Source: Acidimicrobiales bacterium
GTDB lineage: Bacteria > Actinomycetota > Acidimicrobiia > Acidimicrobiales > RAAP-2
Length of the DNA: 38,026 nt
NCBI GenBank assembly: GCA_017883025.1
Contig: JADGOH010000009.1
Location: forward strand, 1 to 38,026
Direction: 5' to 3'
The position numbers and the translations under genes were made by a program. The notes under the pieces were generated by a model that was given only the letters and a program-made list of their open reading frames with translations, made no database searches and was not told the origin of the DNA. This document shows, one piece after another, positions 34,651 to 38,026 of the stretch (its first letter is position 1; every line of letters starts with the position of its first letter).

Positions 34651-35778
34651 TCAGGCCGGCTCGGCGGCGAGGGTCGCCCCGAGCCGGAGCAGCTGGTCGG
34701 TGGCGCCGCCCAGGGTGAGCTCGATGTGCTTGGTGTTCAGGAAGAACCGGTGGAGCGGGTACTCGCGGTCCACGCCGACGCCGCCGTGGAGGTGCACGGC
34801 GGCGTGCACGACCCGCTGCCCGCCGTCGGCGGCCCAGAACTTGGCCACGGCGACCTCCTTGTCGGCGGGCAGGCCCTCGGCGATGCGCCAGGCGGCCTGC
34901 CATGCGGTCAGCCGGATGGCCTCGGCGTCGACGTAGGCGTCGGCGGCCCGCTGGCCCACGGCCTGGAACGTGGCGATCGGCTTGCCGAACTGCTCCCGGT
35001 TCTTCGTGTACTCGGCCACGAGGGCGAGCGACGCGGCGGCGGCACCGGCCTGCTCGAGGGCCAGTGCGGTCGTGCTGCGCTGGACCAGCCAGTCGACGAT
35101 GGCCGGGCCGTCCTCGACGGCCCCGAGTACGGCATCGGCACCCACGGCGACGGTGGCCAGGGTGACGAGGCCCTCGTGCTGGCCGTTGTTGGCCGTCATC
35201 GTCTCGACGGTGACGCCGGCGGCCGACGTCGGGACCACGAACACGGCCACGCCGTCGGGCTCGATCCGGGCGCTCACCAGGACGGCGTCGGCAAACGTCC
35301 CCGAAGGCACGCACGCCTTCACGCCGGTGAGGGTCCAGCCGTCACCGGCCGACTCGGCCACGACGGCCGGGGCCGCTGGCGTGCCACCGAGCTCGACGAG
35401 GGCGGTGGTGAGCACGGTCGCGCCGGCCACGACCCCGGGAAGCCACCGCTGCTGCTGGGCCGCGGAGCCGAACCGGGCGATGGCCGGTGCGGCGGCGGCC
35501 AGGCACTCCACCACCGGCACGTAGGCGGCCGTCCGGCCGGCGGCCTCGGCCAGCAGGCCCGTCTCGAGGAAGCCGAGCCCGGCGCCCCCGACGTCCTCGG
35601 GCAGCGCGATGCCGAGCAGCCCGGCGCCGGCCAGTTCCGACCAGAGCTTGCGGTCGAAGCGGTCGTTCGTCGGGTCGGTCTCCATGTCGCGGAGCCGCTC
35701 CTGGGTCGACAGGTCGGTGAAGATGCGGTCGGCCAGTTCGCGGACGGCCTCCTGCTCCTCGCTGAATGAGAAGTCCAT
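34651..35778 (-). CDS. Acyl-CoA dehydrogenase family protein (second gene of a pair)
   Basis: MDFSFSEEQEAVRELADRIF, GIALPEDVGGAGLGFLETGLLAEAAGR, NREQFGKPIATFQAVGQRAADAY, HLHGGVGVDREYPLHRFFLNTKHIELTLGG. Confidence 0.92.
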   Translation of the reverse strand: MDFSFSEEQEAVRELADRIFTDLSTQERLRDMETDPTNDRFDRKLWSELAGAGLLGIALPEDVGGAGLGFLETGLLAEAAGRTAAYVPVVECLAAAAPAIARFGSAAQQQRWLPGVVAGATVLTTALVELGGTPAAPAVVAESAGDGWTLTGVKACVPSGTFADAVLVSARIEPDGVAVFVVPTSAAGVTVETMTANNGQHEGLVTLATVAVGADAVLGAVEDGPAIVDWLVQRSTTALALEQAGAAAASLALVAEYTKNREQFGKPIATFQAVGQRAADAYVDAEAIRLTAWQAAWRIAEGLPADKEVAVAKFWAADGGQRVVHAAVHLHGGVGVDREYPLHRFFLNTKHIELTLGGATDQLLRLGATLAAEPA

Positions 35779-35831: not shown

Positions 35832-37007
35832 TCAGCGCAGCGACCGGGGCATGCCCAGGCCGAAGATCGCGATCAGGTCCCGCTGGATCTCGTTGGTGCC
35901 ACCGCCGAAGGTCAGGATGACCAGGCTGCGGGCGTACATCTCGAGCCGCCCGGCCAGCACGGCCTCGGGCGAGCCCTTCGAGAGGTAGCCGGCCTGGCCG
36001 ACGATCTCCATCATCAGCTTGAAGGCCTCGAGGTAGAACTCGGTGCCGAACACCTTGATGGTCGAGGCGTCGGCCACGTCGAGGTGGCCCTGGGTCGCGG
36101 TCCACGCCACCTTCCAGTTGATGAGCTTCAGGAACTCGAGCCGGGCGTAGATGCGGGCCAGGTGGACCTGCACCCACTCCTGGTCGATGACCCGGCGGCC
36201 GTCGGCCAGCTTGGTCGCCTGTGCCCACGCCCGGACGTCGGTCATGGCCCGCTCGATGATCCCCGACGAGCACAGGGTCACCCGCTCGTGGTTGAGCTGG
36301 TTGGTGATGAGCGACCAGCCCTGGTTCTCCCCGCCGACCAGGTTGGCCGCCGGCACCCGGACGTCCTCGTAGAACGTGTAGTTGATGTTGTGGTCGCCCA
36401 GCAGGTGCATCGGGACGACCTTGATGCCCGGGGTGTCCATCGGCACCACGAACATCGAGATCCCCTTGTGCTTGGCCACGTCCGGGTCGGTCCGGGTGGC
36501 CAGCCAGATGTAGTCGGCGTCGCCTGCCAACGACGTGTAGATCTTCTGGCCGTTGATGACGTACTCGTCGCCGTCACGGACGGCCCGGGTCTGCAGCGAG
36601 GCGAGGTCGGTGCCCGACTCGGGCTCGGTGTAGCCGATGCAGAAGTGGATGTCGCCGGCGAGGATCTTCGGGAGGAAGAACTCCTTCTGCTCCTGGGTGC
36701 CGTAGTCCATGAGGGTCGGACCGACCGTGTTGATCGTCAACATCGGGACCGGTGCCCCGGCCCGCATCGACTCGTCGAAGAAGATGAACTGCTCGATCGG
36801 GCCCTTGCCCTGGCCGCCCCACTCCTCCGGCCAGCCGATGCCGAGCCAGCCGTCGGTCGCCATCTGCTTGACCACCCGCCGCATGTCGGCACCGATGCCA
36901 TGGCTGGCGGCGAGCTGCGCCTCCACCTCGGGGGTCAGGAGCTTGGCGTAGTACTCCCGCAGCTCGTTGCGGAGCGCCTGGTGCTCCTCGGTGTAGCCGA
37001 TCTCCAT
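35832..37007 (-). CDS. Acyl-CoA dehydrogenase family protein (first gene of a pair)
   Basis: MEIGYTEEHQALRNELREYYAKLLTP, GIGWPEEWGGQGKGPIEQFIFFDE, CIGYTEPESGTDLASLQTRAVRDGDEYVINGQKIYTS, LTFGGGTNEIQRDLIA. Confidence 0.94.
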   Translation of the reverse strand: MEIGYTEEHQALRNELREYYAKLLTPEVEAQLAASHGIGADMRRVVKQMATDGWLGIGWPEEWGGQGKGPIEQFIFFDESMRAGAPVPMLTINTVGPTLMDYGTQEQKEFFLPKILAGDIHFCIGYTEPESGTDLASLQTRAVRDGDEYVINGQKIYTSLAGDADYIWLATRTDPDVAKHKGISMFVVPMDTPGIKVVPMHLLGDHNINYTFYEDVRVPAANLVGGENQGWSLITNQLNHERVTLCSSGIIERAMTDVRAWAQATKLADGRRVIDQEWVQVHLARIYARLEFLKLINWKVAWTATQGHLDVADASTIKVFGTEFYLEAFKLMMEIVGQAGYLSKGSPEAVLAGRLEMYARSLVILTFGGGTNEIQRDLIAIFGLGMPRSLR

Positions 37008-37058
37008 GGGGTCCTCCCGGTCAGGTGCCGACCGCCACGAAGGGCGGTCCGTCACGAC

Positions 37059-37072
37059 TAGAACACGTTACA
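37059..37072. promoter_or_regulatory. KstR-type operator (TetR family) candidate
   Basis: TAGAACACGTTACA matches the KstR consensus TnnAACnnGTTnnA at all specified positions; located 52 bp upstream of the acyl-CoA dehydrogenase start in a divergent intergenic region. Confidence 0.65.
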
Positions 37073-37146
37073 TTCGCCCGTGCGGGGACGCCACCGTCCA
37101 CACCGGCAGCGTAGGGTGCGTCCACCCCCGCCCGGGGCCGCTAGGG

Positions 37147-37160
37147 TTACCATCCGGTAA
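37147..37160. promoter_or_regulatory. Second TetR-type palindrome candidate upstream of the thiolase gene
   Basis: TTACC-ATCC-GGTAA perfect inverted repeat in the same divergent intergenic region. Confidence 0.4.
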
Positions 37161-37292: not shown

Positions 37293-38026
37293 ATGCCCGA
37301 AGCTGTCATCGTCGCCACCGGCCGGACCCCCATCGGCCGGGCCAACAAGGGATCGCTCGTCGAGTGCCGTCCCGACGACCTGTCGGCCCTCGTCATACGC
37401 GAGGTACTGGCCAAGGTCCCCCAACTCGACCCGCACACGGTCGAGGACGTCATCTGGGGCTGCGGCCAGCCCGCCGGTGAGGCCGGCTACAACCTGGGCC
37501 GCGTGGCCGCGGTCCTGGCCGGCCTGGCCGAGGTGCCCGGCGTGACCGTGAACCGCTACTGCTCGTCGTCGCTGCAGACGATCCGCATGGCCGCCCACGC
37601 CATCAAGGCCGGCGAGGGCGACGTCTTCGTGGCCGGGGGTGTCGAGACCGTCAGCCGCTACCTGCACGGCGCCTCCGACGTCGGGCCCCACAACGCGGAG
37701 TTCGCCGCGGCCGAGGCCCGGACCGCCGAGCGCACCGCCACCTCGACCGGGTCGTGGACCCCGCTCGAGGGCGTCTTCCCGGACGTCTACATCGCCATGG
37801 GCCAGACCGCCGAGAACGTCGTCGACCTGACCGGGGTGACCCGCGAGGAGCAGGACGAGTTCGGCCTGCAGTCGCAGCTCCGCGCCGTGGCCGCCCAGGA
37901 GCGTGGCTTCTTCGACCGCGAGATCATCCCGGTGACCCTGGCCGACGGCACCGTCGTCACCAAGGACGACGGCCCCCGGCCCGGCACCACCTTGGAGAAG
38001 CTGGCCAGCCTCAACCCCGTGTTCCG
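37293..38026 (+). CDS. Acetyl-CoA acetyltransferase (thiolase), partial at window end
   Basis: MPEAVIVATGRTPIGRANKGSLVECRPDDL, VTVNRYCSSSLQTIRMAAHAIKAGEGDVFVAGGVETVS; active-site Cys present; open at 38026. Confidence 0.94.
   Translation, partial: MPEAVIVATGRTPIGRANKGSLVECRPDDLSALVIREVLAKVPQLDPHTVEDVIWGCGQPAGEAGYNLGRVAAVLAGLAEVPGVTVNRYCSSSLQTIRMAAHAIKAGEGDVFVAGGVETVSRYLHGASDVGPHNAEFAAAEARTAERTATSTGSWTPLEGVFPDVYIAMGQTAENVVDLTGVTREEQDEFGLQSQLRAVAAQERGFFDREIIPVTLADGTVVTKDDGPRPGTTLEKLASLNPVF

Follow-up and report, generated by a model that had tools for sequence, protein, structure and literature searches.

The 38,026-nucleotide stretch of Acidimicrobiales DNA analysed here (the window) carries, between divergent acyl-CoA dehydrogenase and thiolase genes, a palindrome resembling the operator of KstR, the repressor of cholesterol catabolism in mycobacteria. 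The locus raises the question of whether a KstR-type switch operates in this lineage and, if so, which genes it controls, through which regulator and for which substrate. The preliminary description had left open whether the lineage lies outside Mycobacteriales; it does, belonging to the class Acidimicrobiia, as judged from relatives at 91-95% protein identity, which are Acidimicrobiaceae and Acidimicrobiales MAGs, many from peat, permafrost and lakes by their isolate names. The site and the genes leftward of it are the following.

37057..37074, no strand assigned: KstR-type operator, 18-mer ACTAGAACACGTTACATT (14-bp core 37059-37072), assessed by uniqueness, matrix score and conservation.
35832..37007, minus strand: FadE26/ChsE4-type acyl-CoA dehydrogenase, 391 aa, at the head of the presumed operon, from PDB search.
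34651..35778, minus strand: FadE27/ChsE5-type acyl-CoA dehydrogenase, 375 aa, presumably the partner subunit, from PDB search.

The core TAGAACACGTTACA at 37059-37072 agrees with the consensus TnnAACnnGTTnnA at all eight fixed bases, exactly as first described, and is its single match in the window, where 0.00 matches are expected from 100 dinucleotide-preserving shuffles. An 18-position matrix was built from the 47 published KstR sites of M. smegmatis and M. tuberculosis (PMC1995591, Table 3). On this matrix ACTAGAACACGTTACATT scores 28.0, the flanks fitting too, which places it inside the range of the published sites scored on their own matrix (18.9-34.0), and the runner-up in the window reaches 5.2. 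The operator is intergenic, with its core 51 bp upstream of the start codon at 37007 of the leftward acyl-CoA dehydrogenase gene and 220 bp from the rightward thiolase start.

Conservation was assessed in orthologous regions, namely those upstream of the best 80 FadE26 homologues. The strict consensus was present within 300 bp upstream of 45 of the 80, compared with 1/80 for the reversed pattern, and a matrix score of at least 15 was reached upstream of 55/80, compared with 0/80 equal-length in-gene control stretches; the conservation between orthologous genes on which the preliminary description had made its proposal depend was thus found. In the 11 closest genomes (the window included), the 19 bases over the site, GAATGTAACGTGTTCTAGT, are invariant, while the flanks have diverged. 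A FadE27 homologue directly follows FadE26 in 77/80 loci. KstR-type sites (23.6-28.7) were also seen upstream of FadE26-like genes at three loci (L100, L118 and L135) whose MAGs are labelled Deltaproteobacteria, Myxococcales and uncultured proteobacterium, on contigs that are possibly mis-binned. That the window's site arose by chance and lacks function deserves practically no credence: the bare 14-base consensus does have some genome-wide chance matches (4 for the reversed pattern), but against the score of 28.0 stand 0 occurrences of at least 25 in a 39.9 Mb order-3 Markov simulation of window-type DNA, the site is kept in orthologous regions, and the footprint already refutes the chance reading. 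On comparative grounds, a real, conserved KstR-type operator at 37057-37074 is confirmed.

The genes that follow the operator were identified through their structural homologues. The product of 35832-37007 matched PDB 4x28_A (M. tuberculosis FadE26) with 472 bits and Tcur3483 with 412, the next, unrelated ACAD scoring 144; that of 34651-35778 matched 6wy8_A (Tcur3481) with 284 bits and 4x28_D (FadE27) with 252, followed by a match of 120. Chains A and D of PDB 4x28 are what we take to be FadE26 and FadE27. The gene naming in PMC7807495 also backs the assignment of FadE26/27 as ChsE4-5, and ChsE4/ChsE5 is an alpha2beta2 dehydrogenase acting on the cholesterol side chain (PMC8399759). The operator precedes a known type of KstR target, since the M. 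tuberculosis counterpart of these genes carries a proven site, ACTAGAACGTGTTACAACCG, which lies between Rv3503c and Rv3504 and was positive in EMSA (PMC1995591). The same genome encodes a second FadE26-like dehydrogenase (C117:14944-16083), 63% identical to that of the window and with no KstR-type site nearby.

Two further features lie rightward of the operator, one intergenic and one the thiolase gene itself.

37293..38026, plus strand: divergent thiolase of the PRK07851 family, truncated by the contig end, from a profile match.
37147..37160, no strand assigned: second inverted repeat, TTACCATCCGGTAA, from an alignment of close relatives.

The thiolase scored 358 bits over 244 aa with the PRK07851-type profile NF005890 (cut-off 580, for full length) and only 110 bits with the steroid thiolase PRK07850, as which it was rejected. 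Roughly six of the 11 close relatives keep the repeat TTACCATCCGGTAA with small changes. It occurs once in the genome, where the reversed pattern has no match, which rules out a genome-wide regulon built on this TTACC repeat; it is possibly a local operator or a piece of the thiolase promoter. The divergent thiolase is present at 33/80 FadE26 loci, chiefly in near relatives, and KstR-type sites remain at FadE26 loci without it (e.g., L097, L100 and L121). In the KstR2 system, repression accompanies motif-to-start distances of 22-82 bp, and none is seen at 285 bp (PMC3068626). Because of the 220-bp spacing, the patchy conservation of the thiolase, its own repeat and the KstR2 distances, the operator most likely controls the dehydrogenase operon alone, with the thiolase probably outside its reach. 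The setting originally proposed, paired dehydrogenases with a divergent thiolase, therefore stands for the dehydrogenases, which are of the FadE26/27 type, but the thiolase is probably not a target.

Sites elsewhere in the genome, which is 72% complete, were sought by pattern searches followed by matrix scoring of the matched loci. Over the whole genome, the bare 14-base consensus gave a weak signal (14 matches versus 4 for the reversed pattern), about half of the matches lying inside genes with low matrix scores. The 18-base pattern with up to 3 mismatches showed no genome-wide enrichment (12 matches versus 18 in its own control) and was discarded as useless for that comparison. Given that the bare patterns were weak or unenriched, our argument relies exclusively on matrix-scored sites. 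Further matrix-strong sites in the genome score 18.7-30.6; in the order-3 simulation, 0.25 sites scoring 18.7 are expected per genome of equal size. The loci concerned are listed by contig.

C111: CYP125-like P450 with two KstR-type sites upstream; best PDB match CYP125MRCA, 328 bits.
C58: FadA5 equivalog (677 bits, cut-off 515) with a KstR-type site upstream.
C58: SDR/FadD4-like divergent pair with a KstR-type site upstream.
C58:8413: EchA19-like hydratase (367 bits, cut-off 400); its site has ATT for GTT in the second half-site.
C49: PRK07814 SDR with a matrix-strong KstR-type site upstream.
C173: lumazine synthase-like gene (PRK12419, 241 bits, cut-off 160) with the site TCTAGAACACGTTCTAGT upstream, score 30.6.
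C174:18256: matrix-strong site inside a called gene.

Thus, the preliminary suggestion that sites should precede other steroid or beta-oxidation genes was borne out at CYP125-, FadA5-, EchA19- and FadD-like and SDR genes. A FadD19 gene (677 bits, cut-off 543) lies near the CYP125 gene and has no KstR-type site directly upstream. The side-chain genes for CYP125, FadD19, ChsE4-5, EchA19 and FadA5 are all recognised in the genome, EchA19 below its cut-off. The lumazine synthase-like gene, preceded by a near-perfect TCTAGAACACGTTCTAGT (L054:2770-2787), was an unexpected target.

A regulator that could read these sites is encoded on another contig, so that the proposal does not founder on the lack of a KstR-like TetR protein. 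Among 30 TetR-domain matches in the genome, the protein from contig C93 (L018) is the best KstR candidate: the NCBIfam KstR profile NF033703 is its best family at 159 bits, whereas the next of the ten TetR candidates scanned, L023, reached only 38 bits and was rejected as an alternative KstR. Its top PDB matches are M. tuberculosis KstR (121 bits, 5.6e-34), followed by an uncharacterised TetR protein at 84. Identity to M. tuberculosis KstR is 72/183 overall (39%), 27/33 in the recognition-helix region (GGYEAVQM to HLL) and 36/129 in the ligand-binding part. Because the C93 protein misses the equivalog cut-off of NF033703 (280), which was passed in 0 of 119 Acidimicrobiia genomes and missed by all 38 homologue-bearing ones, we refer to it as a KstR-family homologue and not as KstR itself. 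In a phylogenetic tree, the Acidimicrobiia homologues formed two clades, the first with SKDHLL and the second with SKERLL; the C93 protein fell in the former and M. tuberculosis KstR in the latter (split support 0.975). Of the two clades (L149-L178), one has the operator before its own gene and the other is often linked to fadE26, and several Acidimicrobiia genomes hold two or more copies of the homologue.

The regulator, its site and its presumed target go together across the class. Among the 119 genomes searched, with FadE26 counted at E<1e-120, a KstR homologue was found in 38, FadE26 in 38 and both in 34 (4 and 4 apart; Fisher 7e-21, a p-value that ignores phylogeny). At the 30 FadE26 loci compared, an upstream site was present in 21/26 from genomes with the homologue versus 0/4 from genomes without it (p = 0.005). 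The motif excess over the reversed pattern also differed between genomes with and without the homologue (p = 0.005), a difference confounded by base composition, calculated without the tiny g28 genomes and given little weight. In 7 genomes the homologue lies 5-10 kb from fadE26, and many homologues in the class are preceded by an operator of their own, 50-75 bp upstream of the gene. In G044 (L214 / L190), one of the four site-less cases with FadE26 and no detected KstR homologue, a decayed operator, TCTGTAACGTGTCTCACG, was observed, which suggests that operator decay followed regulator loss.

It is improbable that one of the other TetR regulators of the genome, rather than the KstR homologue, uses the operator. 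In its favour, there are 29 further TetR-domain matches, and the gene of the C93 homologue has no KstR-type operator nearby and is flanked by transporters and a decarboxylase; but none of the other TetR genes has an operator nearby either (no locus scores above 12), the gap in KstR-family scores between the two best candidates is wide, and the genomes with a single KstR homologue of the first clade, G035, G048, G072 and G092, keep the site before fadE26. The exception among first-clade-only genomes is G047, the nearest same-family relative with both KstR and FadE26, which has no site before fadE26.

Control of the fadE26-fadE27 operon by a KstR-family repressor, released by a side-chain acyl-CoA, is therefore the reading we hold with considerable confidence. 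Computation showed the site and its conservation, the identity of the target, the presence of the homologue and, within the class, co-occurrence and physical linkage, and regulator class, operator and target agree, in that all three resemble those of M. tuberculosis; from these we infer binding, repression, ligand and substrate, the evidence on operator binding being comparative throughout. A dimer of the C93 homologue would bind the palindrome ACTAGAACACGTTACATT about 50 bp before the fadE26-fadE27 start codon, where it would overlap and block the fadE26 promoter. As a side-chain acyl-CoA intermediate builds up, the repressor would come off the DNA, allowing production of the alpha2beta2 acyl-CoA dehydrogenase that serves side-chain beta-oxidation, presumably along with a small co-regulated set comprising CYP125-like, FadA5-like, EchA19-like and FadD-like proteins and SDRs. 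The ligand of mycobacterial KstR is 3-oxo-cholest-4-en-26-oic acid or its CoA ester. A passage of PMC8399759 that cites others gives 3-oxo-4-cholestenoic acid as the KstR inducer. Several observations weigh against KstR-family control: the homologue falls below the NCBIfam cut-off (159 versus 280), groups separately from M. tuberculosis KstR in the tree and has no operator at its own gene, G047 lacks the fadE26 site, and phylogeny is ignored in the co-occurrence p-value.

The nature of the substrate is less certain, with sterol side chains and a different isoprenoid lipid as the candidates. A serious alternative, with somewhat less than even chances, is that the switch is of the KstR type but the regulon serves only side-chain trimming or acts on a different isoprenoid lipid, polycyclic or branched, with an acyl-CoA similar to a sterol side chain. 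HsaC was over the cut-off in 0/119 Acidimicrobiia genomes and reached E<1e-50 in 8/119, five of them with the KstR homologue (5/38), and the KstR2 motif had no match in this 72% complete genome. None of the four strongest PF00890 matches was over the cut-off as KstD, these being L-aspartate oxidases, fumarate reductase or PRK07121-type proteins, and the sole BphC-type extradiol dioxygenase in the genome is closer to BphC than to HsaC. Against this alternative, the CYP125-like, FadD19 and FadA5 genes are of the steroid type, a distant KshA-like oxygenase is present (150 bits), and the negative results for ring genes are weakened by the incompleteness of the genome and by curated cut-offs that were built from other classes and may be too strict for this one. 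The conserved steroid-type regulon suggested for a less studied group thus holds as a conserved KstR-type regulon, with 'steroid' unproven because no HsaC-type enzyme was over the cut-off and the KstR2 motif was missing. We tentatively propose, at odds somewhat lower still, that Acidimicrobiia possess an ancient KstR-type regulon for side-chain-type beta-oxidation without the ring-cleavage module or KstR2, such that the switch predates, or is separable from, full sterol degradation and may respond to a different isoprenoid acyl-CoA.

How does this system compare with those already known? In the literature searched, no paper named both KstR and Acidimicrobiia. KstR2 (AnCAAGnnCTTGnT) is likewise a TetR repressor with a 14-bp palindrome and a response to steroid CoA, but its motif is a different one, unmatched in this genome. 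In Nocardioides simplex VKM Ac-2033D, likewise outside Mycobacteriales, the KstR regulon predicted in PMC7807495 shares cyp125, fadD19, chsE4-5 and echA19; that strain has KstR2 sites and the full 9,10-seco pathway in addition, whereas the genes recognised in the present genome are of the side-chain type only. The closest parallel is the KstR (Rv3574) regulon of M. tuberculosis and M. smegmatis, with which the present one shares the operator (ACTAGAAC..GTTACA identical), the fadE26-27 target with its Rv3503c/Rv3504 site, targets of the CYP125, EchA19 and FadA5 types, two sites in front of one gene pair and a TetR homologue identical at 27/33 positions near the recognition helix. It differs in that the host is of the class Acidimicrobiia, the divergent gene encodes a PRK07851 thiolase and not Rv3503c, the regulator is only 39% identical, falls in a different clade, is not linked to the regulon and has no operator at its gene, and ring-cleavage genes and the KstR2 motif were not found in the 72% complete genome. 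The kind of switch is known; what is new is its occurrence in this lineage, together with a regulator of a separate clade and a missing ring module. The finding extends to a mostly uncultured class, common in peat, permafrost and lakes, a regulon so far described mainly in mycobacteria, rhodococci and their relatives, and operator, target pair and regulator are conserved there as a set. With side-chain genes present and ring-cleavage genes unrecognised, the class lends itself naturally to asking what the original signal of KstR was and whether Acidimicrobiia use sterols in part, completely or not at all.
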